Shown here: positions 2,179 through 25,449 of the stretch, one piece after another
How positions within the stretch are numbered: the first letter of the stretch is position 1
Layout of the letters: every line of letters starts with the position of its first letter
DNA from: Arthrobacter sp. AFG20
GTDB lineage: Bacteria > Actinomycetota > Actinomycetes > Actinomycetales > Micrococcaceae
Reading direction: 5' to 3'
Length of the DNA stretch: 64,000 nt
NCBI RefSeq assembly: GCF_002892795.1
Contig: NZ_PJMC01000002.1
Coordinates: forward strand, 248,001-312,000
Program-made: the position numbers and the translations under genes
Notes under the pieces: generated by a model
What the model saw: the letters and a program-made list of their open reading frames with translations, nothing else
Told to the model about the DNA's origin: nothing
The model's database searches: none

Positions 2179-3867
2179 TCAAGTCGATGGCACCCACGCC
2201 TCCGCCTTCGACAGCGCCAACTTCAGCTCCCGGCCGCCGGCTTCTTCCAGCAGTGCGCTCTCGCCGACCACTACCAACAAACTCCGCGCCCGGGACAGGC
2301 CGACGTACAGCTGCTCCGCCGCGCGTTCCGGGTCCTTGAAGCCATTGACGCACAGCACCACAACAGAGCGCTCCAGCCCCTTGAATCCCAGCACGTGGCC
2401 GTAGAACACATCGTTGTTTGCATGGAAGTCGAGCCAGTATTCGGCGATGGAGCCGTTGTCGAAGCGCTCCTGGTGCACGGGATGCCTCGACTTGGTGGTC
2501 AGGAGGGCGATCTGGCTGTTGGCCCAGCCCTCGTCCATCAGCGCGTCGATGCAGCCGTCGGCGGCACCGAGGGCGTCATCGGTAAGGCATTCGACCCTCC
2601 GGACGGGCAGGCCGGTCCCGCCGCGGGGCGTGAAATGCTCGCCGGCGAACGACTTGAACGTCTCGGCGATCTTCCGGGTGTTGCGCAGATTCTCATCGAT
2701 GTGAATGGGAACAAAGGTGGCCGTCGGGCCTGAGGTGAGGTCCGCCGTCGTGCCGCCCCACCTCTTGTAGACGTCCTGGCGGTCATCCATGAAGGCGTAG
2801 ACTTCACTGTTCCCGGGGTCTGTGGTGCAGGCGAGCAGGGCTTCCCACCACAGTGGGGCAAAGTCCTGGGCCTCATCGATGACGACGGCGTCCAGCCGCT
2901 CGTGCGGCCCAAGCCCGGCTCCCAGCTCCTTGAGCATGCGCGGCATCTCGACGTCGAAGTAGTCCTGTCCGGAACCGTCCTCCACGCCCAGCCCGCGGAC
3001 GTATTCGTGAAATTCGCCGGTGAAGACGGGCTGGTTCTGCCGCCAGCCGGATACCTGCCGCTGGAGGTACTGGCCGAGGCCCTTGTTGTAGCAGAAAAGT
3101 CCCACGCGTTTGCCCTGCCGGCAGAGCAGCCTGGACTTTTCCAGGGCGAGCCAGGTCTTGCCGCTGCCCGCACCGCCAGTGAACCGCACGCGCCTGAGCG
3201 ACCGGGTGGCCTGCAACAGCACGGCCTGCCGCTCCGTAAGGTGGTCCTGCGCGTCCTCGGCTTCCTGCGGATCCGGCAGCCCGTCGGAGTCCTTGTTCAG
3301 GTCCCCGCTGAGGTGCCGGCAGATACGCTCCACGAAGGCGGGCGCCAGCGCGCAGGCGCCGCCGCCTTCGTTTTCGATGGCATGCCGTATCAGGTCCGCC
3401 GGTGACTTCATGTCGGTTTGGTCCAGGATCAGCGAACGGGGGCATCCGGCCATCTCCCAGTCCCTCGGGACGTCCGTGTAGGGAAGGCTCACGAGGTATG
3501 CGAAGCGGCTGCTGAGCTTGGAACCGAGCCGGCCTTCGAGCCAGGTCTTGAACGCATGCTGCGAATTCTGGGACTGCGCTACCGGGCTCTGGATCTTGTG
3601 CCTGCCGACCCTATCGGACTGGTACCACTGCCCATTTTCGACGCCGACCTTTCCGCCCTTGACTTCGATGGCGGCCACGCCGACGCCGGGCCACAGCACC
3701 AGCAGGTCGATCTCGTGCTCAGCCCGCCCATCCCGGACCTGGACGGAATGGGCCAGGACACAGTCGTCCGGCAGGCTTCTCCGGAGAGCTTCCCACGCAA
3801 CCCGTTCGGCCGATTGGCCGTCACCGAACTCCGGCTTCTCCGGAATGCATCTCACCGCTGCCCCCAT
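2179..3867 (-). CDS. NERD-domain nuclease fused to UvrD/Rep-type helicase
   Basis: 562 residues. The N-terminal NERD nuclease-related domain (about 15-130) shows an E-x-D...ExK pattern: the acidic pair in AEHEID (D54), then AAIEVKGG with E68 and K70. A superfamily 1 helicase follows: Walker A GGAGSGKTW at 231-239, Walker B VVIDEAQDF in the middle, GFKGLE and the motif VI-like QLYVGLSRAR near the C-terminus. NERD-helicases are common in phage-defence islands and mobile elements, where they are thought to process nucleic acid. The specific role here is not known. It lies upstream of the McrB-like gene on the same strand with 89 bp between them. The ATG at 3865-3867 has no strong ribosome site, and an in-frame GTG five codons further in is an alternative start. 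Confidence 0.85.
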   Translation of the reverse strand: MGAAVRCIPEKPEFGDGQSAERVAWEALRRSLPDDCVLAHSVQVRDGRAEHEIDLLVLWPGVGVAAIEVKGGKVGVENGQWYQSDRVGRHKIQSPVAQSQNSQHAFKTWLEGRLGSKLSSRFAYLVSLPYTDVPRDWEMAGCPRSLILDQTDMKSPADLIRHAIENEGGGACALAPAFVERICRHLSGDLNKDSDGLPDPQEAEDAQDHLTERQAVLLQATRSLRRVRFTGGAGSGKTWLALEKSRLLCRQGKRVGLFCYNKGLGQYLQRQVSGWRQNQPVFTGEFHEYVRGLGVEDGSGQDYFDVEMPRMLKELGAGLGPHERLDAVVIDEAQDFAPLWWEALLACTTDPGNSEVYAFMDDRQDVYKRWGGTTADLTSGPTATFVPIHIDENLRNTRKIAETFKSFAGEHFTPRGGTGLPVRRVECLTDDALGAADGCIDALMDEGWANSQIALLTTKSRHPVHQERFDNGSIAEYWLDFHANNDVFYGHVLGFKGLERSVVVLCVNGFKDPERAAEQLYVGLSRARSLLVVVGESALLEEAGGRELKLALSKAEAWVPST

Positions 3868-4332: not shown

Positions 4333-5622
4333 ATGCTCAGAAATGGTCTTTTTGACGGGTTTGAAGCCTACCGTGTGCCAGCCGAGAGAGACCTTCGTGA
4401 GGCACTCAAGAATGGCATCGTAGCCGTTGACACCAACGTTCTCTTGAATCTTTATCGCTACGCTGAAACTACCGTCGAAGACCTTCTGCGTGTACTAGGT
4501 ACAACCGACGACAGGCTTTTTGTGCCTCACCAAGTTGTTCGAGAATTTTGGCGCAACAGGCAGGGCGTATTGGGAAATCCGACTAGTGCCATCAAGGACA
4601 CCCAATCTGCATTGACTAAGAATCACACATCAACAGCTGATGCGATAAGACGCTGGGCGAAAAACGTCGCTGCCGATCCGGCCGTCAGAAACGAAATACT
4701 GAGTCTCGTCGACCAGTTCTTTGTCGACATCAAGGACCGGATTGGTGACGGCAAGCCGACTCGAGTAAGTGTTGCGACACCGACAGACGATGATCGACTT
4801 CTCGTACGAATCGCCGAACTTCTCGAGGGCCGTGTTGGCACCCCTCTCACTCCCGATGACTGGGAAAAATGCGTTGCTGAAGGTGAACGCCGGGTCGAGA
4901 AGATGGTTCCCCCAGGGTACATGGACGTAGACAAACTCGAATCGGACCTTCCTGAAGGCGCATCAGGCGACTACCTAGTGTGGTTTGAACTTCTACGTGA
5001 AGGGGAGGCTCAGAAAAAGCCATTGATTTTGGTTACGTCCGATACCAAAGAGGACTGGTGGAATCAGCCAAATGGCTCTCGGCCTCTCGGACCACGAAGG
5101 GAGCTAGTGGAGGAATACTCGGCTGCCAGTGGCCATCAAGTGTTTCTCCTTGAACCAGCTGACCTTCTTAGCCTCTCAGACTCACTCGGTATTGATACCC
5201 GAAGCGAATCTGTGCAGGACATCGAACGAGTCAAGAATGAGCCCACAGAAGCGACCCCGTGGACGCCTGAGTCCGTCCATGCCGTCCTTGACGAGCTCGA
5301 AAGACAAGGACACGTTCAAGCCTTCGTCATCCGCGAGGCCGCGGATCACGGCGGGAAAATCACCCGCGAGCGTGTTTACGAAATAGATGGGCGCAGCGAC
5401 GAACAGATGCTTAGAGGTTTTACGCGGCCGGTTCGGCGTGTTACTAATGAGCTCCAAGCTTTGGGGCTGGTCCCAGAGGGGGTTGCCTCATTGCTGCGAG
5501 CCGTCTACGAAACAGGTGTGAAGTCTTCACATTTCGGGATACCCGCTGAAGTTGTGGAGATCTTGGAGTCCCGCGTAACCCCCACTGACGGCCTGTCACC
5601 GATGAAGGACACTAATACGTAA
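4333..5622 (+). CDS. PIN-like domain protein (PIN_8/DUF4935 type)
   Basis: 429 residues. The N-terminal PIN-like fold shows VAVDTNVLLNLYRY (D33) and a second acid in VVREFW (E71). A later acidic site is in ILVTSDTKEDWW, near residue 235. These fit the metal-binding acids of PIN-type ribonucleases. The C-terminal third (about 310-429) is a separate region, possibly helical and nucleic-acid binding, that I do not recognise. Proteins with this PIN_8 domain are frequent in defence and mobile islands, but their target is mostly unknown. The start is well supported: a purine-rich GGGGGGAAA directly precedes the ATG. It stands alone, and its 3' end overlaps a possible small minus-strand gene. Confidence 0.75.
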   Translation: MLRNGLFDGFEAYRVPAERDLREALKNGIVAVDTNVLLNLYRYAETTVEDLLRVLGTTDDRLFVPHQVVREFWRNRQGVLGNPTSAIKDTQSALTKNHTSTADAIRRWAKNVAADPAVRNEILSLVDQFFVDIKDRIGDGKPTRVSVATPTDDDRLLVRIAELLEGRVGTPLTPDDWEKCVAEGERRVEKMVPPGYMDVDKLESDLPEGASGDYLVWFELLREGEAQKKPLILVTSDTKEDWWNQPNGSRPLGPRRELVEEYSAASGHQVFLLEPADLLSLSDSLGIDTRSESVQDIERVKNEPTEATPWTPESVHAVLDELERQGHVQAFVIREAADHGGKITRERVYEIDGRSDEQMLRGFTRPVRRVTNELQALGLVPEGVASLLRAVYETGVKSSHFGIPAEVVEILESRVTPTDGLSPMKDTNT

Positions 5623-5984: not shown

Positions 5985-8900
5985 ATGGCTAGGTTCATTG
6001 GGGGAGAGTCCGCGGAGAAGCTGCGCGAGGGCTTGTACGAACTTCTCAGCACGGAAGCTCTCGGCAATTTGCTACACGACGAACAACATTTGCAGCCAAT
6101 CTTCGCAGAGATAGCCGAACACGACGCCCCCGACATGCTCTCCCGCCACGTCGCCAATGCCGTCCGCGACGCTCTCACCGCAGCCAAACCGGCAGATAGA
6201 GTCGGTCTAGCTAACCGCCTCCTGCAGGAACTGAAGACCACTAACCGCATCAGTCCAGGTCCCACCCAACTCCACGCTCTCCACCGCCCTGACACGCTAA
6301 AGCGCAGGCAGCTTCGCCGGCCCACCACTAAGCTGTCCGACTCCGCCCTCCTCACCAACAGCAAGGATGACCCCAACCTTGCCGCCGAACTCCGCACCGA
6401 GATCGAGTCAGCCGACACCGTCGACCTCCTCTGTGCCTTCATCCGCTGGACCGGCCTTCGGCTTCTCGAACCCGCCCTCGAGCAGCTAAGGGATCGCGGC
6501 GTCAGGCTGCGAGTCATCACCACAACATATATGGGAGCAACGGAGCGCCGGGCCATTGACCACCTGGTACAGCGCTACGGCGCCGAGGTGAAGATCAGCT
6601 ACGAGATACATTCAACGCGTCTCCACGCCAAGGCCTGGCTGTTCCGACGCAACTCCGGCTTCCACACGGCTTACGTCGGCAGCTCCAACCTCAGCAGCGC
6701 TGCGCTCCTCGACGGCCTTGAGTGGAACGTCCGCCTCAGCTCGGTAGCCACACCGGACCTGCTAAAGAAGTTCGAGGTCACCTTCGACAGCTACTGGGAA
6801 CAGCGCGCATTCCACAGTTACGACCCCCAACGGGACGCGGGCAAGCTGGACGCCGCCCTTGCCCGTAACGGCGGCAAACTCACCGGGCCTCCGGACGCTG
6901 CAACAGGTTTGGAAGTCGAGCCCTTCCTCCACCAGGTCGAGATGCTCGAGGATCTCGAAGCAGAGCGGGACAAGGGATACCACCGCAATCTGCTCGTGGC
7001 CGCCACGGGTACCGGTAAGACAGTCATCGCTGCCCTGGACTACAAACGCCTCTGCGAAGCGGCCGGCCGAGAGCTGAACCTGCTCTTCGTGGCACACCGC
7101 CAGGAGATTCTCAAGCAGTCCCTACGGACCTATCGCGACGTGCTGCAGAAGGGTTCCTTTGGCGAGCTGTTCGTCGGTGAGCACAAGCCAAAGGACTGGA
7201 GACACGTCTTCGCAAGCGTTCAGTCCCTTGCTGCACTGGGAATGGACAAGATCAGGCCGGACGACTTTGACGTCGTCGTGATCGACGAGTTCCACCACGC
7301 CGAAGCGCCTACCTACCGGAGGCTCATAGACCACCTCAAGCCCAAGGAACTCCTCGGCCTGACGGCAACACCGGAACGCGGCGACGGGGTGGACGTCGCC
7401 AAGCAGTTTTTCGAGGGTCGGCGGGCCAGCGAACTCCGGTTGTGGGACGCGCTCGACGCCGATCTGCTGGTCCCGTTTCACTACTTCGGAGTCTCGGACG
7501 ACGTTGACCTCAGCCGCTTGGAGTGGAAGCGCGGCAGCTACGACATCGGCCAGCTCGATGCCCTCTACACCGGCAACGAGGCCCGTGCCGGCAAGGTGAT
7601 TCGCGATCTCCGGGACAAGGTCACCAGCACGAGTGATATGAGGGCTATCGGCTTCTGCGTCTCCGTGCAGCACGCCGCCTATATGGCCGAGGTCTTCAAC
7701 CGGGCCGGTATATCCTCAGTTGCGGTTTCGGGGCAGACCGACGACGCCGAACGCGCCCTCGCGCTGCAACGGCTGCGGTCCCGCGAAATCAACTGCATCT
7801 TCGCCGTCGACCTGTTCAATGAGGGCCTGGATTTGCCCGAGGTAGACACCATACTGCTGCTCCGGCCCACGCAAAGCGCCACGATTTTCCTCCAACAGCT
7901 GGGCCGGGGGCTTCGTCGCGCCGGAGACAAGGCCGTGCTCACGGTGCTGGACTTCATTGGACAGCAGCGCCGTGAGTTCCGTTTCGACCTCAGGTTTCGC
8001 GCCCTAACCGGCTACGGCCGCAAGGAGCTGGAGAAGGCCATTGAGGACGAATTTCCCTTCCTACCGTCTGGCTCGCAGATCGTGCTTGACCGGGTGGCGC
8101 AGGATGTGGTGCTCGAGAACATTAAGGCGCAGCTCAGGTTCAACAGGGCTCAGCTGGTGCGGGACATTGCCTCGTACGGGGAAACAGAGCTAGAAGCTTA
8201 CCTGGAGAAGTCCGGCAGCGAGCTGAAGTCCATCTATCGTTCCACGAAGGACTCCTGGACCGGTTACCTCCGCCAGGCCGGGCTGATCGAGGGATATTCA
8301 CCGCTCGAAACAGTCCTCAGCGGAAAAATCTACGCTCTTTCGGACGACGCCGAGAAAAAGCTGCTTGCGCGCATGGTGCGGCTGATTCACGTAGACGACC
8401 CAGAGCGCGCGGAGGCGTACTCCATGCTTGTTAGCCCAGGTGCGCCCAGTTATGCGCAGCTTGGCCCGCGAGAGCAAACCTTCGCCCGCATGCTCTTTTA
8501 CACGCTGTGGGATGACGGCGGCGGTTTTCAGGCCTACGACGCCGGCCTGGACCATCTGCGCGGATACCCGTTTGTTTGCAGCGAAATCCGCCAGCTGGTG
8601 AAGCTGGGAGTGGCAGCATCCAAGCATACCGGCAAGAGCCTGGGCGCAGGCTTGCAGCACATCCCGCTGCTCACCCACGCGACGTACCGGCGGGAAGAGG
8701 TACTGGCAGCCCTTCAGTACGGTTCCCTGGAGCTGGGCAAGAATGTGCAGCACCGGGAGGGTGTGGCCTGGTGCCCGGCAACGGCTACAGATGCGTTCTT
8801 TGTGACCCTCAGCAAGGACGATAGGAACCATTCCGCCACGACGATGTACAAGGACTACGCCATCAGCCCCGAGCTGTTCCACTGGGAGTCGCAGAACGCA

Positions 8901-9140
8901 ACCTCGCCCAGCAGCCCGACAGGTAAGCGGTACTTGGACAGGCTGAAGCACGAGTCGCACATCCTGCTTTTCACCCGGGACACCGCCGAGGACGAGACCG
9001 GCTTAACGGTTCCCTACACCTCCCTGGGCCAAATGGATTATGTCCAGCACTCGGGGGAGAAGCCGATTGCTATCACCTGGAAGCTGCACCGGCCGATGCC
9101 GGGGGACGTGTTCGCGTCCGCGGCTGCGGTGGCTCAATGA
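5985..9140 (+). CDS. PLD-nuclease / SF2 helicase / DUF3427 defence-type protein
   Basis: 1051 residues in three parts. A phospholipase-D-type nuclease domain (about 130-270) carries HAKAWLF (H214, K216) and the downstream GSSNLS. A superfamily 2 helicase (about 315-690) has Walker A ATGTGKT near 340-346, the DEAH-like box DEFH at 434-437, GLTATPER and the motif VI QQLGRGLRRAG. A long C-terminal region (about 700-1051) matches the DUF3427 architecture, ending in a domain with LGQMDYVQHSGEKPI. This architecture is known from defence islands, where it is presumed to cut or unwind foreign DNA. It stands alone with no partner gene beside it. The ribosome site before the ATG is weak, so the start could be slightly different. 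Confidence 0.88.
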   Translation: MARFIGGESAEKLREGLYELLSTEALGNLLHDEQHLQPIFAEIAEHDAPDMLSRHVANAVRDALTAAKPADRVGLANRLLQELKTTNRISPGPTQLHALHRPDTLKRRQLRRPTTKLSDSALLTNSKDDPNLAAELRTEIESADTVDLLCAFIRWTGLRLLEPALEQLRDRGVRLRVITTTYMGATERRAIDHLVQRYGAEVKISYEIHSTRLHAKAWLFRRNSGFHTAYVGSSNLSSAALLDGLEWNVRLSSVATPDLLKKFEVTFDSYWEQRAFHSYDPQRDAGKLDAALARNGGKLTGPPDAATGLEVEPFLHQVEMLEDLEAERDKGYHRNLLVAATGTGKTVIAALDYKRLCEAAGRELNLLFVAHRQEILKQSLRTYRDVLQKGSFGELFVGEHKPKDWRHVFASVQSLAALGMDKIRPDDFDVVVIDEFHHAEAPTYRRLIDHLKPKELLGLTATPERGDGVDVAKQFFEGRRASELRLWDALDADLLVPFHYFGVSDDVDLSRLEWKRGSYDIGQLDALYTGNEARAGKVIRDLRDKVTSTSDMRAIGFCVSVQHAAYMAEVFNRAGISSVAVSGQTDDAERALALQRLRSREINCIFAVDLFNEGLDLPEVDTILLLRPTQSATIFLQQLGRGLRRAGDKAVLTVLDFIGQQRREFRFDLRFRALTGYGRKELEKAIEDEFPFLPSGSQIVLDRVAQDVVLENIKAQLRFNRAQLVRDIASYGETELEAYLEKSGSELKSIYRSTKDSWTGYLRQAGLIEGYSPLETVLSGKIYALSDDAEKKLLARMVRLIHVDDPERAEAYSMLVSPGAPSYAQLGPREQTFARMLFYTLWDDGGGFQAYDAGLDHLRGYPFVCSEIRQLVKLGVAASKHTGKSLGAGLQHIPLLTHATYRREEVLAALQYGSLELGKNVQHREGVAWCPATATDAFFVTLSKDDRNHSATTMYKDYAISPELFHWESQNATSPSSPTGKRYLDRLKHESHILLFTRDTAEDETGLTVPYTSLGQMDYVQHSGEKPIAITWKLHRPMPGDVFASAAAVAQ

Positions 9141-9266: not shown

Positions 9267-9868
9267 TCAGTCGTTCGGATGGGCAGCAAGATATCTCCGA
9301 AGAATCAGGACGGCTTCGTGGATATGGTTAAGCTTTAGTTGTTCGTGCGGTCCGTCGTAGTCCAAGGGGTCCATCAATCGCCACTTCTCCGACTCAGAAA
9401 AGAGGTGGAAATAGTGGTGGGCAGACTTGCGAGCCTCCCGGGTGCGGTCCCTGTAGTTACCCTCGATTGTGTCAGGGCGCTGGAAGATTAAGTGATTCTC
9501 CCAGTCGGAAGACACCTCTTCGAGTACCCGAAGATACTCTCGCAGGGTTCGGTTTCGACACGTGTCAGCGATGGTCGAAAACAGTACCGGGGAGGATTTG
9601 CGGGGAATCGGGGCGGAACGTCTTGCTCGCTGGTGTAGGCGAGGACTCTCTCCTGAGTCAGATCCTCCGGCCCACGCAGCGCATCGGGATCACTCGGCTT
9701 AAAGGTGTGGCGGATGACGTGTATGTTCTCCAGGGGGACCGCTGGATCACAGTCCGAACCTATGCCGCTAAGCACATGACCCAGGGTAAGGGACGCGCGG
9801 GAATCCAGCTCTGCAGAGACCATGGTCTCCGCAGGCACGTAGAGGGCAGAGGCTCGCAGATCAGACAC
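9267..9868 (-). pseudogene. unknown ~200-residue protein broken by one frameshift
   Basis: Two overlapping minus-strand frames read as one protein. The N-terminal part (from ATG 9868) runs through DPDALRGPEDLTQERVL. The C-terminal part contains RNRTLREYLRVLEEVSSDW and NHIHEAVLILRRYLAAHPND and stops at 9267. Adding one G to the run near 9590 on the minus strand joins them as PANPPRVLFSTIADTC. I do not recognise the family, and no catalytic motif is obvious. It may be a decayed island gene or carry a sequencing error. The two frames also exist as separate ORFs of 126 and 82 codons. Confidence 0.5.
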
Positions 9869-10242
9869 TGGAACACCTTATGCCACTGACTCATGCCTTC
9901 TAGTAAGGGTTACGTCAGCGATAGAACAGTGCCCCTCACCGGTCCGTTCTAGCGTTGCGATCACGTCAGCTGTTTCAGGGTTGCCATTGCAGATGCTGCC
10001 GTACGAGGGAGCTGACCACGCGTGGCTATTTTGTATCAGGCCATGACCAGAAGGTCGTCCACGAACGCAGGCCGTGAGGGCCGAGAGCGAGGATGCTGGC
10101 AGCGAGGCGAGGCGGCCAGATGTGCGGTGGTAAACGGCTAAACTACGCAGGGTGCTCTGGAGTCGTGTTGCGCTCGGAGCGCTATGCCTGTCGAACACCG
10201 TGGCACGAAGCACATATTCAACGCAACATAAATAGGACGGCC
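9869..10242 (+). promoter_or_regulatory. leader region of the EcoRI-type cassette, no clear gene
   Basis: These 374 bp hold no convincing coding frame. A minus-strand frame across them has random-looking composition, and the plus-strand frame that runs into the endonuclease gene (from 10093) lacks homology to the family. The segment presumably holds the promoter for the restriction gene. AT content rises towards its right end (CATATTCAACGCAACATAAA just before the start), marking the left border of the low-GC cassette near 10205. I cannot assign -35/-10 boxes with confidence. Confidence 0.3.
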
Positions 10243-11082
10243 ATGGCAAACAAGAATCAGTCAAGTAGACTGACAGATCAGCACATCTTATCTAAGGGTG
10301 TTATAGGAATCTTTGGCGAATATGCAAAGAATCACGATCTCAATGTGTCTGAAGTTTCTCAGCTGCTTGTTAAGCAGTTGAAAGTGGAGTACCCGATGTT
10401 GCAATTCCGATATCGGGTAAGTGTAACAAAATCTGAAATCAATGCCGCGTTGCAGAAAATCGACGCCATGCTAGGCCAAACCCTTTTTGTACCAAACTCC
10501 AGCATCAGACCTGACGGTGGGCTGATTGAGGTCAAGGATGACCATGGTGCATGGCGGATTGTTGTTGTCTCAGAAGCAAAGCATCAAGGTAAGGATATTG
10601 AAAACATTCGTGCCGGTAAGCTGGTTGGTACGAAAAGTAATCAAGACCTTATGGCTGCTGGAAATGCCATTGAGCGATCACATAAAAATATTTCTGAAAT
10701 CGCCAATCTAATGCTCTCCGAGTCGCATTTTCCCTATGTGCTCTTCCTTGCAGGATCAAATTTTCTCACCGAATCGGTAACCGTAACACGTCCTGATGGA
10801 CGGAACGTTGTTTTGCAATACAATTCAGGGATGCTCAATAGATTAGATAGGTTGACATCTGCGAACTATGGAATGCCAATCAACACAAATCTGTGTGAGA
10901 ACAAGCTTGTGACATACCAAGAGAAGGCGATCTCGCTTCAGGCTGCATCCATCTATTCTCAAGGAGATGGCGAGGCGTGGGATAGCATCGAGATGATGAG
11001 CATCATGTTAGATGTAGCAAAAACATCCCTCAAGGTGCTTGCGAGTGATCTATTTACTCAGATGACGGAAAAGGGTATCTAA
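10243..11082 (+). CDS. ecoRIR: type II restriction endonuclease, EcoRI family (predicted GAATTC)
   Basis: 279 residues, against 277 for E. coli EcoRI, with recognisable similarity along the whole length. The catalytic P-D...E-x-K is at the same numbering as in EcoRI: P90, D91, E111 and K113 (SSIRPDGG, SEAKHQGKD). The base-contacting loop MAAGNAIERSHKN is at 137-149, and ESHFPYVLFL and NYGMPIN are kept, so GAATTC is the predicted site. The start at 10243 (MANKNQSSRLTDQH) aligns with the EcoRI N-terminus; an upstream in-frame start at 10093 would add 50 residues without homology. Base composition is visibly more AT-rich than the neighbours, which suggests transfer. The methyltransferase follows after 2 bp. 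No control (C) gene is present. Confidence 0.96.
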   Translation: MANKNQSSRLTDQHILSKGVIGIFGEYAKNHDLNVSEVSQLLVKQLKVEYPMLQFRYRVSVTKSEINAALQKIDAMLGQTLFVPNSSIRPDGGLIEVKDDHGAWRIVVVSEAKHQGKDIENIRAGKLVGTKSNQDLMAAGNAIERSHKNISEIANLMLSESHFPYVLFLAGSNFLTESVTVTRPDGRNVVLQYNSGMLNRLDRLTSANYGMPINTNLCENKLVTYQEKAISLQAASIYSQGDGEAWDSIEMMSIMLDVAKTSLKVLASDLFTQMTEKGI

Positions 11083-11084
11083 TT

Positions 11085-12101
11085 GTGGCGCGCGTAGTTC
11101 AGCATTCATTGCTACACAAAGCTAAGAAGAGCAAGAACGATGAGTTTTATACGCAACGGGTGGACATTGAGAAAGAGTTACAGCACTATACCTCTCAATT
11201 TATCGACAAAGTCGTTTACTGCAATTGCGATGATCCTACTATTAGTAACTTCTTTGCATACTTTTATGAGAACTTTGAGAGACTCGGTCTCAAAAAGTTA
11301 ATAGCAACTGGGTACGCTAACGATGAACGAGGGTCTGGCAGTTTTTTTGAGTACACGGGTAAACCTGCAGAGAGAATTCGTTTTGAAGCGAACGACATTC
11401 ACAGTCTTGAGGGGGATGGCGACTTTCGTGGCCCGGAAAGTATAGAACTCCTCATGGAAGCAGACATCGTCGTCACCAACCCTCCTTTCTCCTTGTTCCG
11501 AGAATTTATTGCTCAGATGGTTGAGTTTGACAAACAGTTCCTGGTAATTGGAAACGTCAACGCAATCACCTATAAAGAAGTCTTCAACCTCGTCCAAGCC
11601 GAAAAAGCATGGCTGGGCGTCCATCTCGGAAGGGGAATTTCCGGGTTCATCGTTCCAGAGAATTATGAGCTGTATGGGACCGAGGCGCGAATTGATAGCA
11701 ATGGCAACCGAATCGTGTCGCCGAATAATTGTTTGTGGCTAACGAACCTAGACTACCAGAAAAGGCATAATGAATTAGAGCTCACCAAATCGTATCACGG
11801 AAATGAAGCAGCATACCCTCGATATGATAATTTCGACGGAATTAATGTCAACAAGACAAAGGACATCCCCGCCGATTACACCGGATATATGGGTGTTCCG
11901 ATCACTTTTCTTCACAAGCATAACCCTGATCAGTTTGAAATAATCAAATTCAGAAAGGGCGACGATGGGAAAGATTTATCGGTAGGTGGTAAGTGTCCGT
12001 TCTTCAGAATTATCATCAGAAAAAAGAGTGAAAACCCGGACCCGAAAAAGGCGACGGTAGAACTTCTTGAATCGCAAGGCTGGCAGACCAGGTTGTGGTA
12101 A
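11085..12101 (+). CDS. ecoRIM: adenine-N6 DNA methyltransferase, M.EcoRI family
   Basis: 338 residues from a GTG two bases after the endonuclease stop. It protects the cognate site by methylating adenine. The NPPF catalytic motif is at 132-135. Long stretches resemble M.EcoRI: LLHKAKKSKNDEFYTQ near the N-terminus, DKVVYCNCDDP at 41-51, the GVHLGRGISGFIVPE region, YGTEARIDSNGNRI and GVPITFLHKHNP. The last ~20 residues, after FFRIIIRKKSE, extend beyond the E. coli enzyme. The 2-bp spacing implies transcription with the nuclease; a promoter inside the nuclease gene, as known in E. coli, cannot be judged here. AT-rich like its partner. Confidence 0.96.
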   Translation: MARVVQHSLLHKAKKSKNDEFYTQRVDIEKELQHYTSQFIDKVVYCNCDDPTISNFFAYFYENFERLGLKKLIATGYANDERGSGSFFEYTGKPAERIRFEANDIHSLEGDGDFRGPESIELLMEADIVVTNPPFSLFREFIAQMVEFDKQFLVIGNVNAITYKEVFNLVQAEKAWLGVHLGRGISGFIVPENYELYGTEARIDSNGNRIVSPNNCLWLTNLDYQKRHNELELTKSYHGNEAAYPRYDNFDGINVNKTKDIPADYTGYMGVPITFLHKHNPDQFEIIKFRKGDDGKDLSVGGKCPFFRIIIRKKSENPDPKKATVELLESQGWQTRLW

Positions 12102-12480: not shown

Positions 12481-13123
12481 GAGGCACTGACAAAGTGGAC
12501 CCCTACCGCCACCACGCATTCGTGGTGCAGCTGCATCTGAACCGCATCGATTAGATCGAGGCGACCCTTGCGGCCCTCGACAGCCGCATCGACATGGTGA
12601 TGGAACCTTTTTCTTTAGCCCGGGAGCTGCTGATGACCGTCCCTGGGATTTCGAAGAATGTCGCTAACGTCATCATCGCCGAAGCCGGCGTGGACATGAA
12701 CGTCTTTGACACTGCGGGCCATCTGGCCTCGTGGGCGGGAGTATGTCCGAGCCAAAACGAGTCGCTGGACGGATCAAGTCCACCCAAACCCGACCCGGCG
12801 ACCACTACCTCAAAGCCGCACTGGGAATCGCGACCCTGGCCGTGTCCCGATCAAAAATGACCTACCTCGCCGTGAAAAAATACCGTCGCATTCAGTCCCA
12901 TGCCGGCGCCCTGCGTGCTGTAGTCGCACTCCAATACACGCTGCTCGTCATTGTCTGGAACATGCTCCACGACGGAGTCGCCTACGACGAACTCGGCATC
13001 GCTCATTACGCCAAAACGAACCCCGAACGCGCCAGGAAACGCCTCCAACGCCGAATGGTCGTGCTCGGATTCGAGCCCAACCTCATCCCGCTTTCCGCAG
13101 GGAGCTCACCTTCGTTTTCTTAG
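12480..13123 (+). pseudogene. remnant of an IS110-family transposase (C-terminal part)
   Basis: The C-terminal half of an IS110-type transposase, decayed. It begins abruptly around DKVDPYRHHAF, has an in-frame TAG at about 12552 and then reads LLMTVPGISKNVANVI and GHLASWAGVCPSQNES. It shifts frame near 12760 into RIKSTQTRPGDHYLKAALG, and ends with LLVIVWNMLHDGVAYDELG and a stop at 13123. The N-terminal DEDD catalytic half is absent. It differs in sequence from the second IS110 element immediately to its right, so this is a separate older insertion. It is non-functional. Confidence 0.8.
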
Positions 13124-13367
13124 TAGCCTTTATGCCCCTTGTGGGGCGCCCGTTCCGGGCTGAAAATGCCCGTGTGGTCGCCTGCCAACGCCGTGTTTCT
13201 ATGGTTCGTTGAGGCCGTCTAGTAGCCGGGCGCAGGGGGTCACGCTGTGGGCCCTTCACTGTTTCTGTTGCATAGGACGAGGACTAGATTCTGTTCTCCC
13301 TGGTGATTCCCTCGGGCGGCCGCGCATGTAGTCAGCGGTGCGTTTTGGTGAGGAGATGACGTGAAGC
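13124..13367 (+). ncRNA. left-end region of IS110 element, possible bridge RNA gene
   Basis: The 244 bp between the older remnant and the IS110 transposase start hold no coding frame. In IS110-group elements the bridge RNA, which pairs with target and donor DNA, is encoded in the left end upstream of the transposase. That makes this the place to look. Short self-complementary runs are visible (for example GCCCCTTGTGGGGC near 13134), but I cannot define loops or boundaries by eye. Position is the main argument. Confidence 0.3.
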
Positions 13368-14636
13368 ATGCTGGCCGAATCCCAGGATGAGGAAGAAATT
13401 ATCGCCAGGGTCGCGGCACTGGACATCGGCAAGGCCGAACTCGTGTGCTGCGTGCGGCTCCCCGCGGAGGGGAACCGGAAGAAACGGTTGCAGGAGGTGT
13501 CCACGCATTCGACCATGACCCGTTCGTTGGGGGACCTCGCGAACCGTCTGGTCGATCTGGGCATTGAGCGGGTGGTGATGGAGGCGACCAGTGATTACTG
13601 GAAGCCGGTGTTTTACCTCCTGGAGGCCCATGGGCTGGAGCCGTGGCTGGTCAACGCCCGCGACGTCAGGCATCTGCCCGGGAGACCGAAGACGGATGTG
13701 CTCGATTCCGTATGGTTGTGCAAGGTCGCCGAACGTCAGATGCTCCGTCCCAGCTTCGTCCCGCCGGCCCCCGTCCGCCGGGTGCGGGATTTGACCCGCT
13801 ACCGGATTGATCTGGTCGGGACACGGACAGCAGAGAAGAACCGGGTCGAAAAGCTCTTGGAGGATGCCTGCATCAAGCTTTCTGTTGTCGCCTCCGACAT
13901 CTTCGGGGTCTCCGGACGGGAGATGATGGCGGCACTGGTAGCCGGCGAACATGACCCCAAAGTGCTCGCCCAGCTGGCACGGTCGGTGATGCGGAACAAG
14001 ATCACCCAACTCGAGGAAGCCTTCACAGGCCGTTTTGATGATCATCACAGATTCCTGCTGGCACGGATGCTGGCAAGGATCGACGGGATCGACGTCGATA
14101 TCGCCGCGGTTGATGAACAGATCGAGGCGCAACTGGCCCCTTTCGCGTCGGCGGCGGAACGCCTGGATGAGATCCCGGGCATCGGCCCCGTCGCCGCCGC
14201 CATCGTCATCGCCGAAATCGGGGTCGACATGTCACGGTTCCTGGCCGCGGGGCATCTGTGTTCCTGGGCAAAGTTCTCCCCGGGCATCAGCTCCTCAGCG
14301 GGTAAGACCAAGGGCAACGGCTCGAGCGGGCACGGCAACCGGTATCTCGCCCGGGTCCTGGGCGAGGCTGCCGTCATCGTTGGAAGGACCCAGACTTTCC
14401 TAGGCGAACGCTAGCGGCGGCTGGCCAGGCGGAGGGGAAAAGCACGGGCCATCGTCGCCGTCGGGCGTTCCATCCTCGTCATCATCTGGCACCTCCTGCA
14501 GGATCCCGAAGCCCGGTTCCATGACCTCGGAGCCGACTACTACCAACGGCGCACCAACCCCAACGCCAGGAAACGCACTCACATCCGCCAACTCGAAGCC
14601 CTCGGCTACACCGTCACACTAACCCCCGCCGCGTAA
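13368..14636 (+). pseudogene. IS110-family transposase interrupted by an amber codon
   Basis: The frame opens at 13368 with the DEDD domain: ALDIGKAEL, then VVMEATSDYW and GRPKTDVLD. It carries the C-terminal Transposase_20 part DEIPGIGPVAAAIVIAEIG and CSWAKFSPGISSSAGKTKG. It stops at a TAG at 14412-14414 after 348 codons. The same frame continues without interruption as RRLARRRGKARAIVAVGRS, through LVIIWHLLQDPEARFHDLG, to a TAA at 14634-14636. A full-length protein would be 422 residues, normal for the family. The TAG sits where homologues usually have an aromatic residue (ERYRRLARR). The protein is probably inactive unless the stop is read through. Confidence 0.85.
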
Positions 14637-15580: not shown

Positions 15581-16175
15581 ATTCCTTCTACTAACGACCA
15601 CTGGACAGGGTGACGATACGTCCAATCCTCACTGCCGTGGGGTACAGAGGCCGTGGCGACTATGGCAGTGTGATTCAGGATCGGTGTGACGGTTTGAACC
15701 AGGACCGCCCATGACTCGCGGGGCAGTAGGGACGGTTATTCGTGGCCCCACCTTCAACGTTGGAGAGTTGCGCCGTCTTGCCTGCGCGTGGTTAGCACTT
15801 GCCGCGTCTCCAATGGCTCCTTGCCCTTTTGATTGCGGCCTCGCTTCTCCTGGGCACGGTCTCTGCCTACCTCGGACTGAAAGAAGAGGGGGCGTTCATA
15901 TGCTGTCCCGGTCCTAGGAACCGGAACACCCGAACGTTGTGGAATGCCGTGCCGCTCAACCGGCTTGAGCCGGTAATGGCAATGTGAGAGGTATCCGGAG
16001 GCCTTGGCGAAACTCAGGGAAGCTTGGCGCGACCTGGAAGCAGCAGTCAGGGGCTGGACACGGAATGGAACAGACTGGAAGAAGGACCAAACACCGATAG
16101 AGCGATGGCTGGTCCGGCTCGGAAATACGGCCGGCAGGACAATCCTGCGGGGTGAGCAGCGGAGCGCTTCAATCT
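15581..16175. other. stretch of nearly 600 bp with no secure gene
   Basis: Only doubtful short frames occur. A TTG-start frame at 15799-15987 begins with a hydrophobic signal-like segment (LQWLLALLIAASLLLGT) and may be the start of a small membrane protein. A TTG-start frame at 16004-16210 (AKLREAWRDLEAAVRGW) is helix-like but overlaps the 3' end of the CoiA-like gene. Neither has a normally spaced ribosome site. They may be debris of decayed genes. Confidence 0.3.
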
Positions 16176-17741
16176 CTACCGCCAGCCGGCGCCCCTTACG
16201 CCAGAATTGAGGCAGCCCCCGTCTGCATGGATGCCTTCGTTATCGTCTTCGAACATTCCTCCGCAGTCGGTGCATTGGAAACGGAACCCGTTGGGGCTTG
16301 CGAGGTATCGCGGGTTGTCCCTAATCGCGTGCATGCGCGCTGCGCGTGCGTCCTTAGCGGCCTGTCGCTCTGCGATCTCTTCCGCGTTACGGGCTTCCGA
16401 TATCCAGAATGGTTTAGGTTTCGGGCCAATAAAGCCCGGGTCCGCCTCTTGGTATGTCCGCTGATGGTGCGCAGCAGGAGACTTTTTCCTGCCCGCGCGT
16501 AGCTGCTCTGCCTGCTTGCGGCGAAGCACCTCCCAAGGAGGGAGCGTCCGGCCCGAACGGCTGGGAGTGCCTGCCGCTATGAGTGACCATTTGGTGTGCG
16601 GAAGCGCCGCCACCCACCGGCCTTGGATGACTTCCTTGCATTCTGGGCAAGAGAACCCTTGTCGTTTTTGGGTGCCCTGGAGGGGAACTATCTTTGCCTC
16701 CGCCAGACCACTGTTATGCGCCTCCAGCCACGCGGTCACATGTACGCGTACGTGTTGGAAATTCTCTGGCCCTGGCCTGTAGGGGCGGATGTTGATTCGG
16801 GCCGGCGGTTCAACCAGCCGCCAAATGAGCATTGGATGACCAAAGCCAACGCAATGGACAACGCTCGCCCAGATGTTCATTCCGGCAGCGACGGCAGGGG
16901 TTTCATAGATATCGGGCGCTTCGGCCCGCTCCAAGAACAACGCATCCCGCTCCGCGTTCTTGCGGACGGCCTCTTCGTCGGCTGCCCGTTTAGCTTCTAA
17001 AGCAGCGGCCGCCTGCAATTGCGCAGCCGCTGCATTCTTCGATCGTTTGGCTTCCTCCTGAGTGAGTTTTTCTTCCTGCTGTTTTGGTGTGCCAGGTGCC
17101 CAGCGGAACGACGGGTGCAGAATCTGGTCCACGACTAGACCGACGCGCTCCACATTCCGCACGACGGGTTGATATTTCACCGCTTGCATGAGCACCGCCG
17201 GGTCTTCGGGCAGGTCGCTACGCTTACCGAAACCTGTCACGATCATCGGTAGCTTCACACGAAACCAGTCCAGGCCTCCGGGGACAATCCACACCGGTGC
17301 GATGCCGTCGTCCAGGTAGCGCTGTGATCGGAGGACGTACTCTTCTTCGCTCTGCGCCGACAGTTGCACCTCGAACGCGAGTTTCCGGCCGCTCGTGTGG
17401 AAGGCCATTACATCGGCAATCCAGGCCCGGTCGGGACGTGCATGCTCGACTTCAGCGCGCCAACCGGGGGTCGGGTTAATCCGGTCTTTTAGCGCGCGCT
17501 TCATCACCAGGTGCTGCTCTGATTCAGACTTGTGGTTCACGGGGCATTCGACGTCGGGATAGTGCTTGAAGAACTGACGTCCTCGGCGTGTGACCCTGCT
17601 TGCCCGTAGTCCGCACTCCTGCAAAGCAAGGGTTTCGTACAGCGGATGATGTACCAAGGCCCGCCAAGGATCATGGGCCATCTCCGTGGCGTCTATCCGC
17701 TCACCCTTCAAGTACGCAACCAGCTGCACAAAAGCCCCCAT
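16176..17741 (-). CDS. CoiA-like nuclease-domain protein
   Basis: About 521 residues. The central part (about 70-160) shows the CoiA-type restriction-like nuclease signature: SESEQHLVMKRAL, RPDRAWIADVMAFH and the hallmark KLAFEVQLSAQSEEEY followed by VWIVPG. An alanine- and charge-rich coiled-coil segment (around 230-275) follows. The C-terminal half has two CxxC pairs (CPECKE, CTDCGG), suggesting zinc ribbons. In Firmicutes CoiA acts in competence; in actinobacteria similar proteins are often in islands with unknown roles. I chose the ATG at 17739-17741 because GGAG sits six bases upstream, and the longer frame (to 17873) would overlap the divergent gene. Confidence 0.75.
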   Translation of the reverse strand: MGAFVQLVAYLKGERIDATEMAHDPWRALVHHPLYETLALQECGLRASRVTRRGRQFFKHYPDVECPVNHKSESEQHLVMKRALKDRINPTPGWRAEVEHARPDRAWIADVMAFHTSGRKLAFEVQLSAQSEEEYVLRSQRYLDDGIAPVWIVPGGLDWFRVKLPMIVTGFGKRSDLPEDPAVLMQAVKYQPVVRNVERVGLVVDQILHPSFRWAPGTPKQQEEKLTQEEAKRSKNAAAAQLQAAAALEAKRAADEEAVRKNAERDALFLERAEAPDIYETPAVAAGMNIWASVVHCVGFGHPMLIWRLVEPPARINIRPYRPGPENFQHVRVHVTAWLEAHNSGLAEAKIVPLQGTQKRQGFSCPECKEVIQGRWVAALPHTKWSLIAAGTPSRSGRTLPPWEVLRRKQAEQLRAGRKKSPAAHHQRTYQEADPGFIGPKPKPFWISEARNAEEIAERQAAKDARAARMHAIRDNPRYLASPNGFRFQCTDCGGMFEDDNEGIHADGGCLNSGVRGAGWR

Positions 17742-17841
17742 TTTTAGCTCCGCATTTTGCTTGGCCGTAAATATACTGCGCGGAAGGGCGAAAACCGGGA
17801 CCCGTGTACGTGGCGGATCCTGGGGCAGATATGATCCGGGC

Positions 17842-18504
17842 ATGACTGAATTGGAACTGCTCGTGAAGGCCATCGCTGCAGATCTCGGCGATCCTTCCGA
17901 ATGGCGCCCACCTGTGGAGTTTCGGGACTCTCTTGCCCTTTGCGCCCTGAACTCGGCCTACTCCCTGCGGGCCAGCTCAGCCGCAGCGACGAAAGCACTT
18001 GCCCGGTACCGTGCGCTTCGACCAACGGCAGACACAGACAATGGCCTAGACCTGATGGAGGCCATGGATAGCGCAGGCGGCCCTGCAGATTTTGCCCGTG
18101 AGATCCTGGGCAACGAAAGCAAGCTCCCCGGTACAAACCGTTTGCGACCTGAGGGCATTTACGAGGGGCTGTCCCGGCTCGCAGCCCTGGACACCGCAGT
18201 AACGAGCACCGAGCACCTCCGAACCGCCGCGGCCAAGGGAAGTACCTCCGCAAAGGCGGCATGGATTTCAGTCAAAGGCTTCGGCCCGCTTGCCTGGTCA
18301 TACCTGATCATGAATGCAGGAGTCAGCACAGAAACAAAACCGGACGTAATGGTGCAACGCTACCTTGTACGAGTTCTTGGCGATGAAGAAAGACTTACTC
18401 CCGCACGAACGCGGCAGATCCTCCAGCTGGCGGCCGCTAAGCTCACGGTTGAGCCCCGGGACTTCGACCGAGCAATATGGCTGCACGAGAGCCCGTCGAA
18501 GTAG
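17842..18504 (+). CDS. helix-hairpin-helix (DNA-glycosylase-like) protein
   Basis: 220 residues. The C-terminal half contains a helix-hairpin-helix pattern, VKGFGPLAWSYLIMNAGV followed by KPDVMVQRYL, as in HhH-GPD-type DNA repair proteins. A catalytic lysine or FeS cysteines are not evident, so it may only bind DNA. It is divergent from the CoiA-like gene with 100 bp between the two starts, which suggests a shared promoter region. The start is the ATG at 17842; a longer frame from 17686 would run through the divergent gene. Confidence 0.65.
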   Translation: MTELELLVKAIAADLGDPSEWRPPVEFRDSLALCALNSAYSLRASSAAATKALARYRALRPTADTDNGLDLMEAMDSAGGPADFAREILGNESKLPGTNRLRPEGIYEGLSRLAALDTAVTSTEHLRTAAAKGSTSAKAAWISVKGFGPLAWSYLIMNAGVSTETKPDVMVQRYLVRVLGDEERLTPARTRQILQLAAAKLTVEPRDFDRAIWLHESPSK

Positions 18505-21163: not shown

Positions 21164-22409
21164 TCACTGTCTGTCGGCGGTGGAGTAGAGGTAGTCCCGG
21201 TGCCATGCAAAATATTGGCGAGACTCCTCGCCATGGGCCAGGCATTTCCGGTCGACGACGTGTTGAATTCGGTCCGCAACCTGCTCGGAACGGCGTTTGC
21301 CGGGTTCGATGATTCCCTGCTCGCTGACGACAACGTAGCCTAGTTCAAAGAGAGCATCGCAACCCAATAGACATGCGAGCATGGCAACATTTCGCGCATC
21401 CATGCGTTCGTTCTCTGAACAAGCCCAACGGGGCTTGATGTGCGCCGCGACGAACAATTCGTCCGGAAGGGACAGCCCGCAGAGCGAGCAGGTATTTCCC
21501 CTGTACAGAAGCTGCTGGCCTCGTAAGAATCGCTGCTCGGCCCGTACCGACGCGATGGTTAGTCTGTCGCTTACACTGCCGCTATACCCGTCCAACCGCT
21601 CCGCATGTTCCTCGTTTTCGCTCACTGCGTCGGTCGTTTGCATGCCTGCCATACGCAACAGCTGTAGGGCGTGGCCACTATCCAAGGGAAAGAAATAGCC
21701 ATTCCTCAGAGTCCCGCTCGACGTCACCGGACCTTGGCCACCGTCGAGCACGCCCAGGGCCTGGCTCCGTGGAATCCGTATCTTCTGCACCGTTTCGGTG
21801 AGCACGAGGGTGCCCTTCGTGTCGTCAGCACATCGTCATAACCGCGGGAGGATAGGCACGCTGCGGCTTGGTTGCTACCCGACTCAGACCCCGGATCTCC
21901 GGGCTGTCATAGTGAAATACGAGGTCGCCGGGAAGGACGCTGTCCAGCGTACGCCAATGGTCAACCTGCTGGCCGCGGCGGTCCTTTAGAGGCGCCCAGA
22001 GTGTCCCGTCGTCGTACACGGGCTCAAAGTTCGTAGATTGGTTGGCCCACCAGAACTTCGTGCTAGGACTGATGGCGATCCTAACGGGACTGGCTTTGTC
22101 TTGGGCTATTTCACCGAGGGTATCCACCAAGTCGTAGCCCAGCCCATCGAGTATGGTGCGTGTTTGTTCTCCGCCACGAAGCCGGGGAGGTCCGTCTTTG
22201 CCGCAGGCAAATTGCAGTTGGAATGCCATGGCTAGCAGCGGCTTGCTGGCAATCTGCTGTCCTTGATCGATCACCACGTACCGGTGAGACTCCTCGAACC
22301 TCGTTCGGCCGATGAACTCTTGACTCCCAAGCTGGTGCCACAGCTGAATGGCCATCTCGATGCTTCTCGGCTCCAAGTCCGCCCAGGATCTCTTCATGGA
22401 TTCATTCAT
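21164..22409 (-). pseudogene. type IV-like restriction enzyme: ScoMcrA-type head, EVE-like reader, HNH nuclease; frameshifted
   Basis: The gene starts near the ATG at 22407-22409 (MNESMKRSW). The head region (LEPRSIEMAIQLWHQLGSQE, RYVVIDQGQQIASK, GGEQTRTILDGLGY) resembles the ScoMcrA N-terminal head. An EVE/PUA-like module follows (FWWANQSTNFEP, LWAPLKDRRG, VLPGDLVFHY). The HNH part has CSLCGLSLPDELFVAAHIKP and a downstream N...LF. After RAYPP the frame is lost at about 21840. Adding one G at each of two nearby places gives PPAGYDDVADDTKGTLVLTE and joins the HNH frame (21164-21805). ScoMcrA-type enzymes cut modified (methylated or phosphorothioate) DNA. The head assignment is by eye. As read, no full-length protein can be made. 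Confidence 0.7.
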
Positions 22410-22919
22410 ACCGGAGCATTGCTGAGACGCTATGCGATTCGATTGATCAGCCGCCCCCTGTCCCCGAAGGCCAGGCCTAGAACGCACGCTCAAATCTCGC
22501 CGCACCGCAAAAACGAGTTCCCTTTTCGTAGCCTTCGCCCGTTCCCGCAGAGGATACCGTTCCCCGGCATCGGGGCCAACGCCACGAGCTGCTTGCCCCA
22601 TCTCCCACGACTCATCGGTCAAACGAGCACTGAGCTGCGTTACGTCATCTGGACTGACCACCGACAATCGCCCGTGCTTCGACACCAGATCGAACACCAT
22701 GTATTTTACAGATATGTCATCAACTTTTGGGAGTCCTGTCTCCAGGTACAGCGCGTCAAATGCCCCGAGGAACTCGGAGTAGGCCGTCTGCTTCTGATTC
22801 CTCAGCCATTGCTGATGCTCCGTTTTTCTGCCCAGCCACGACCCGTACCAGCTTCCTAGCAAAGCCAGTCCACCCGTTAGGAAAGGAACACCGAGGAGTA
22901 GCCATTGCTCGAAGGTCAT
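22410..22919 (-). CDS. small membrane-anchored unknown protein, reading through into the HNH enzyme frame
   Basis: From the ATG at 22917-22919: MTFEQWLLLGVPFLTGGLAL, one N-terminal membrane span, then a charged helical region (RKTEHQQWLRNQKQTAYSEF, LSARLTDESW). Proteins of this type are usually 150-180 residues and stand alone. Here no stop separates it from the HNH enzyme frame, so a 364-codon ORF (21825-22919) joins two unrelated modules. The probable explanation is a lost stop or an indel around 22440-22500. Function unknown. Confidence 0.5.
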
Positions 22920-23120
22920 GTTTCAAAGTACAAGAGAAATTTCGGGAAACGATGGCGCCCACACGTAGGGCAACTTCCACGGATAACAGCTCATCTGGCC
23001 TTGGCATGGTGATTGCGTCTCAACGCACGCACGGATCCTTGCGGTTGGGATGACCCAATTGAGGCATTGGTTCATCCGCTTCCCCATGCATTCCGGCCTA
23101 CCAGTATGAAATATTGAGGC

Positions 23121-23627
23121 ATGGGAAAGAGAACGGCGTACTTGCTCGTCTTGGACGAGCGTGAAGCAATCCTCTGGGTGCTCCTGAATGAGCAGATGGC
23201 GTTTCCAGCCACACCGCGACGAGAGGTCTCCGCACTGAGACCGGGGGACGAACTCTTCCTACTGACGACGCGGGGCGCCTATCACAGTCCCAATCGGGAC
23301 CGAACCAGAGTCATCGGCACAGCAAGTGTGCAGAGCGAGGTTAGCCAGCTGGACCCGCAAGTGGAGATTGCGGGTCGTACGTTCGCGAGCGGTTGTCGGA
23401 TCAAGCTTCAAACACTGGCGCCCTGCCGGACCGGCCCGGATATAGGACTGCTGGCTCCGCAGATCCACGCGCTGCGCGGACAAAAGAATTGGGGTCAGTT
23501 GCTCCGTAGGGCCCTCGTCCCTATCGATGATTCAGACGTCATGCTCTTCAGCCGCGAGCTGCAAGACCACATTCGTCCGTTGGACGAGTCTCTTTTGACC
23601 TACAGCAGCAGTATCAAAACGCCATGA
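23121..23627 (+). CDS. EVE/PUA-like domain protein
   Basis: 168 residues starting MGKRTAYLLVLDEREAILWV, with RPGDELFLLTTRGAYH and VIGTASVQSEVSQLDPQ, the strand pattern of EVE/PUA-like folds. These folds bind modified bases or RNA and commonly lie in restriction islands. It lies divergently from the membrane-protein/HNH genes, beside the adenine methyltransferase. A role in sensing modified DNA is plausible but inferred. The ATG at 23121 follows TTGAGGC. Confidence 0.55.
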   Translation: MGKRTAYLLVLDEREAILWVLLNEQMAFPATPRREVSALRPGDELFLLTTRGAYHSPNRDRTRVIGTASVQSEVSQLDPQVEIAGRTFASGCRIKLQTLAPCRTGPDIGLLAPQIHALRGQKNWGQLLRRALVPIDDSDVMLFSRELQDHIRPLDESLLTYSSSIKTP

Positions 23628-23749
23628 TCAGTCGATCGTGATTAGCAGCGAACCAACACCTCTGTTTGAGATGAGGGACATGCAGGATTGCGGCCTTCCA
23701 AGCCCGGGCGGTCCGGCGCGTCAGATACTTTCCACCGTCTCACGACAGA

Positions 23750-25375: not shown

Positions 25376-25449
25376 CCCTCAATTTTGCCTTGTTATGGCC
25401 CTGCGTGTGACATCCGCTCCCTGCGTGGCGAGCCCGTACCCTACTTAGT
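25376..25449. promoter_or_regulatory. divergent promoter region between methyltransferase and type IIG gene
   Basis: Only 74 bp separate the two starts, so both promoters and any operator must lie here or inside the 5' ends. The stretch TTGCCTTGTTATGGCC is present, but no convincing -35/-10 pair or palindrome was identified. Confidence 0.4.

Follow-up and report, generated by a model that had tools for sequence, protein, structure and literature searches.

Introduction

EcoRI is a dimeric nuclease that works with Mg2+, and the methyltransferase of the RsrI system is unrelated to that of EcoRI. According to the available part of PMC3874152, the E. coli EcoRI system is an operon in which the nuclease gene (R) precedes the methyltransferase gene (M), under reverse promoters within R; the accessible text of PMC4081073 gives GAm6ATTC as the product of M.EcoRI. 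A 2018 study (PMC5896346, available sections) puts the number of putative EcoRI-like proteins in REBASE at 526, describes a Firmicute branch and reports A/AATTC star activity at low salt for LraI, the enzyme of Lactococcus raffinolactis. No title on EcoRI-like systems in Arthrobacter or Rhodococcus stood among the literature matches listed. The accessible main text of a paper on restriction-modification (R-M) systems of Arthrobacter plasmids (PMC6305408) contains 'EcoRI' zero times, and that of an Arthrobacter methylome paper (PMC5356067) contains 'GAATTC' zero times. It is quite possible that REBASE already holds an entry for the locus described below or for another actinobacterial EcoRI-like system.

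Here we analyse a 64,000-nucleotide stretch of the genome of Arthrobacter sp. AFG20 (the window). It very probably carries an orthodox EcoRI-type cassette (Type II) with both genes intact, predicted G/AATTC cutting and GAm6ATTC methylation, laterally acquired from what is presumably an actinobacterial or Gram-positive plasmid pool, not a proteobacterium, and lodged in variable DNA among defence genes.

An intact EcoRI-family cassette

The cassette consists of two genes:

10243..11082, + strand: EcoRI-type Type II restriction endonuclease, 279 aa (PF02963, PDB EcoRI, PADLOC, residue register)
11085..12101, + strand: M.EcoRI-type adenine-N6 DNA methyltransferase, 338 aa (PF13651, PADLOC MTase_II, NPPF)

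The nuclease frame runs from ATG 10243 to TAA 11082; its longest ORF opens at 10093, with homology only from ATG 10243 on. The protein aligns gap-free with the sequence of the EcoRI crystal structure (PDB) over residues 2–277 (E 4e-128), and it covers the entire Pfam EcoRI profile (PF02963, positions 1–257 of 257; 450 bits, E 1.8e-135, cut-off 22) and matches PADLOC REase_II at 454 bits. Judged by these matches, it is a member of the EcoRI family, with a likeness far beyond chance.

Within an 87-row alignment, P90, D91 and K113 are present in every row and E111 in 86, and the window nuclease carries all four in register, together with Q115 at EcoRI numbering. We take D91, E111 and K113 to be the PD-(D/E)xK catalytic residues of EcoRI, and M137–N149 with R200/R203 to be its recognition residues. 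Residues 137–149 of the window nuclease read MAAGNAIERSHKN, in register with EcoRI, and the E. coli plasmid copy has the identical loop and both arginines. Across the 87 rows most of these positions show little or no variation; A138 differs in 11.

The methyltransferase frame extends from GTG 11085 to TAA 12101 and matches EcoRI_methylase (PF13651) at 408 bits (E 5.8e-122, cut-off 26.4) over profile positions 2–305 of 345, as well as PADLOC MTase_II at 471 bits. It contains the NPPF motif and shares long stretches with the E. coli plasmid enzyme. A search of NCBIfam profiles returned no family for either protein. Only 2 nt separate the nuclease stop from the methyltransferase GTG, both frames being intact and side by side; intergenic gaps across 74 cassettes measured range from -1 to 45 nt. 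An RsrI-type cassette would have a methyltransferase outside the M.EcoRI family, whereas that of the window falls within it (PF13651). As far as families and frames tell, the two genes form an orthodox Type II R-M cassette, intact and of the EcoRI type. An earlier, sequence-only reading had placed a complete EcoRI-type cassette at 10243–12101 in an actinobacterium, with P90, D91, E111, K113 and the recognition loop at EcoRI numbers and with NPPF and long identical stretches in the methyltransferase; the coordinates prove exact, and the family matches, the alignment and the E. coli plasmid enzyme bear out the rest.

Predicted specificity and activity

By homology, the nuclease would act as a homodimer with Mg2+ and cut at G/AATTC, while the methyltransferase would modify the second adenine to give GAm6ATTC. 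The host's 988 GAATTC sites (4.9-Mb genome in 49 contigs) would then be protected and incoming unmethylated DNA cut. GAATTC specificity, proposed earlier, stands as a prediction with the recognition residues kept. We infer activity, specificity and expression, as well as the time and route of arrival.

GAATTC avoidance was not found in the host genome, taking Kr 0.78 as the limit, as in the available part of PMC4687349: Kr is 0.92 on 506 kb without overlaps (observed/expected 1.06) and 0.88 on 400 kb, and stretches of genus relatives without a detected nuclease give 0.93, 1.11 and 1.06. In the same part of that study, roughly half of 1774 cases show avoidance, recently acquired systems doing so less frequently. 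Lack of avoidance is weak evidence, because about half of those cases show none, many older systems included; it fits, weakly, either a recent arrival or a silent cassette.

It is unlikely, though worth weighing, that the cassette is inactive, its sequence intact but silent or non-cutting and retained for a while after arrival. Such a state would agree with the unavoided GAATTC sites and with the promoter scan, which found no promoter-like site upstream of the nuclease and a region no richer than its shuffles (3 promoters against 3.3 expected, 1 terminator against 2.1), other promoter types lying outside its coverage. One minus-strand site within M matches 11 of 12 positions. Against inactivity, neither frame is interrupted and every catalytic residue is retained, and missing avoidance is commoner in recently acquired systems, as the accessible text of PMC4687349 has it.

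Composition and genomic surroundings

R and M are AT-rich outliers in their own genome, with GC of 0.439 and 0.445 and GC3 of 0.46 and 0.51, respectively. The comparison set was drawn from 506 kb of the genome (the entire 386-kb contig plus 40 kb from each of three further contigs) and comprised 257 other ORFs that do not overlap and reach 250 aa or more. Their mean GC is 0.653 and their minimum 0.539, and only one has a GC3 lower than those of R and M. This GC check upholds the earlier claim that both genes are AT-richer than their surroundings. The low GC is partly a family trait, cassettes ranging from 0.278 to 0.475 with a median of 0.323 (66 with enough flank, window included). The most GC-rich of 74 cassettes is a Rhodococcus plasmid copy (0.475), followed by that of the window (0.443), which suggests that the latter spent some time in high-GC hosts.

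The surroundings contain the following features:

2182-3867: NERD-helicase gene, possible defence gene
4333-5619: PIN-domain gene, possible defence gene
5985..9140, + strand: PLD-nuclease/helicase/DUF3427 protein, Type IV methyl-directed restriction by PADLOC (1111 bits)
12505..13126, + strand: IS110-family transposase, 3' part, 5' end missing
13122 to about 14706, + strand: second IS110-family element, apparently complete, ends approximate (NCBIfam IS110, 224 bits)
14745 to about 15340, + strand: serine resolvase/recombinase gene, broken frame (two overlapping frames; Pfam Resolvase)
23753-25375, - strand: Eco57I-type adenine methyltransferase
25450-28413, + strand: Eco57I-type adenine methyltransferase

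To the left, the Type IV-like gene has long matches at 72–85% DNA identity in at least dozens of 150 genus genomes. Genome G008 matches the window up to 9136 and then, in the stretches compared, shows no match of at least 300 bases rightward, which puts the cassette in variable DNA just past this gene; by that comparison, the Type IV-like gene forms the left-hand boundary of this variable stretch. Among the matches listed from the 150 genus genomes, with at most two candidates scored per genome, no site empty of the cassette was found. A flank piece (9582–9907) recurs at six loci lacking the cassette, and at one of them, L173, it is followed after about 1 kb by 55 bases matching 15710–15764, too few for an empty-site call. 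No convincing repeats flank the cassette. The PIN-domain gene, at 0.539, has the lowest GC of the 257 other ORFs.

To the right, the cassette ends 0.4 kb from the truncated IS110, of which intact 419-aa copies occur in genus genomes G472 and G510 and a related piece on contig C31 of the window's own genome. The second IS110, with a 348-aa transposase at 13368–14414, separates this fragment from the resolvase; G472 has the two joined without it and is, by this alignment, an empty site for the second element. The resolvase is 84.6–85.3% identical at the DNA level to two Arthrobacter plasmid recombinase genes, and window DNA matches Paenarthrobacter and Arthrobacter plasmids at 81–91%. The right edge reads as a site of repeated insertion and recombination and does not reveal how the cassette arrived. 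Where the sequence-only reading saw IS110 and resolvase remnants, the truncated IS110 and the broken resolvase are confirmed, but one IS110 copy looks complete.

Farther right, a 565-aa protein with a CoiA-type nuclease-like domain is encoded at 16176–17873 (- strand). A second R-M-like cluster spans 21164–28416 and includes a weak HNH match (21164–21805, - strand), an unassigned 364-aa protein (21825–22919, - strand) and both Eco57I-type methyltransferases.

Distribution and origin

A scan of one genome per species yielded 241 nuclease relatives, the best 80 of which were analysed. These 80 comprise 52 Bacteroidota, 8 Pseudomonadota, 4 Cyanobacteriota, 3 without a phylum and 13 across ten other phyla, and no actinobacterium appears in their titles. 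Proteobacteria, from which EcoRI relatives had been called best described, are therefore not the main holders in this set. An M homologue accompanies the nuclease at 77 of the 80 loci, in some cases truncated where the contig ends; two of the three loci lacking it lie at contig ends. Plasmid records gave 19 nuclease matches, including a single actinobacterial one, on Rhodococcus pyridinivorans plasmid NZ_CP066854.1, which is typed as conjugative and holds the sole other actinobacterial relative found.

Samples of 198 genomes from the genus, 295 from the family, 394 from the class and 396 from the phylum each contain a single genome with the nuclease, the window's own; the samples overlap, and each draws part of its group. 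A search of 161 genomes from a different family in the same class, in which no control matched, did not find it. The cassette is very rare in the actinobacterial genomes sampled. Its lateral acquisition is well supported, because the nuclease is confined to the window's own genome within these samples and the cassette lies next to the truncated IS110. The lateral part of the earlier claim of recent lateral transfer thus stands, whereas recency is backed indirectly, by the single hit among 198 genus genomes, the lack of avoidance and the atypical GC. No full-length nuclease relative above 73% identity was seen, so the donor is unsampled and identity cannot date the arrival; two partial relatives reach 74 and 75%. 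A phage route was also considered and found no support: phage records gave one partial match and there were eight viral contigs, at 65–75% identity.

Phylogenies were built from 87 nuclease rows (7 of 94 shorter than 255 aa dropped) and 94 methyltransferase rows (8 of 102 shorter than 280 aa dropped), and careful trees from 49 selected rows each; neither of the careful trees had a converged bootstrap, and the Rhodococcus branch was long in both. The careful methyltransferase tree makes the window sister to the Rhodococcus plasmid M (100/99), and the pair adjoins Staphylococcus and Leuconostoc plasmid copies, though weakly (73/43); the corresponding values in the quick 94-row tree are 99 and 91. 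This pairing could be inflated by the length of the Rhodococcus branch or by GC-driven amino-acid bias common to both. For the nuclease, the careful tree unites the window, Rhodococcus, Staphylococcus and Leuconostoc plasmid copies in a starred set of four rows (98/92), within which window and Rhodococcus are weakly joined (66/10). The quick 87-row tree leaves the window, Rhodococcus and Gram-positive copies near the base, their order not separated. The enterobacterial copies, that of the E. coli plasmid among them, cluster apart from the window in a starred clade of their own. A proteobacterial donor is thus unlikely, and a Gram-positive or actinobacterial pool is the likely source.

Recent direct import of a proteobacterial cassette resembling that of the EcoRI plasmid, the origin that the earlier reading had implied, is very unlikely in this light. 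The foreign composition of the cassette would suit it, as would the nuclease's 71% identity to the copy on the E. coli plasmid, a value as high as those to most others. The separate enterobacterial clade, the pairing of the window M with that of Rhodococcus, the placement of the nuclease in the Gram-positive set and the GC of the E. coli copy (0.32–0.34, against 0.44 in the window) all argue against it.

We favour arrival by lateral transfer, probably via an actinobacterial or Gram-positive plasmid pool. An old actinobacterial clade had been named as the finding that would speak against recent transfer, and the trees go halfway towards it, with a pairing of two members, window and Rhodococcus, that is deep but sporadic. 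Such a pattern fits a lineage circulating on plasmids, and arrival in the window genome may still be recent. A bolder reading, somewhat less likely than not, takes the window and the Rhodococcus plasmid as two sightings of a distinct, deep-branching actinobacterial EcoRI lineage, partly ameliorated to high GC and with genes touching or nearly so, which would travel on actinobacterial plasmids and drop into defence clusters of larger replicons.

Comparison with known systems

The EcoRI system of E. coli plasmid pU90-3 (NZ_CP068038.1) shares with the window the R-then-M order, both families and the catalytic and recognition residues, at 71% (R) and 66% (M) identity. It differs in residing on a 5.6-kb mobilizable plasmid, whereas the window copy lies on a 386-kb contig of an actinobacterial host, in its lower GC (0.32–0.34 versus 0.44) and in its gene gap of 29 nt versus 2. 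The cassette of Rhodococcus pyridinivorans NZ_CP066854.1 is actinobacterial like that of the window, has the same R-M order with touching genes and the sister M (100/99), and is the only one of 74 that is more GC-rich. Identity to it is 68% (R) and 66% (M), and it is carried by a 134-kb plasmid typed as conjugative.

LraI, as described in the available part of PMC5896346, is likewise EcoRI-like and Gram-positive, but from a Firmicute. A relative with a target other than GAATTC is the least likely alternative of all: the nuclease departs from the E. coli plasmid copy at 29% of its residues, yet the recognition loop and R200/R203 are those of that copy and mostly invariant or nearly so in 87 rows, the M stretch past the NPPF region is by eye nearly that of the E. 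coli plasmid enzyme, and LraI is shown in that part of PMC5896346 to cut G/AATTC. GAATTC thus stays the predicted target of the window system.

A possible RsrI-type counterpart on Acinetobacter schindleri plasmid NZ_CP044480.1 (locus L110) pairs an EcoRI-family nuclease, 46% identical to that of the window, with a different methyltransferase upstream, which has no tblastn match to the window M. Actinobacterial PF13651 methyltransferases, found in 22 other genomes among 396 in the order, belong to the EcoRI_methylase family like the window M, but form a deep branch separate from it in the tree, and their middle stretch is unlike that of the window M (by eye, three sequences). None of 14 such loci had an EcoRI match within about 1.5 kb of flank. 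A GmrSD_N-HNH nuclease (PADLOC PDLC03418) adjoins the PF13651 gene in five of six loci (L181, L183, L184, L185 and L186, L182 being the one without), so that in actinobacteria this methylase family also occurs with an unrelated nuclease partner.

These comparisons place a textbook restriction system on a large actinobacterial contig as well. A practical prediction follows: shuttle plasmids without GAATTC, or premethylated by M.EcoRI, should enter the strain better. The general picture is unchanged, because many phyla are already known to have EcoRI-like systems. The cassette is a new, well-preserved member of the well-known, widely travelling EcoRI system and gives it a new host, rather than being a new kind of system.
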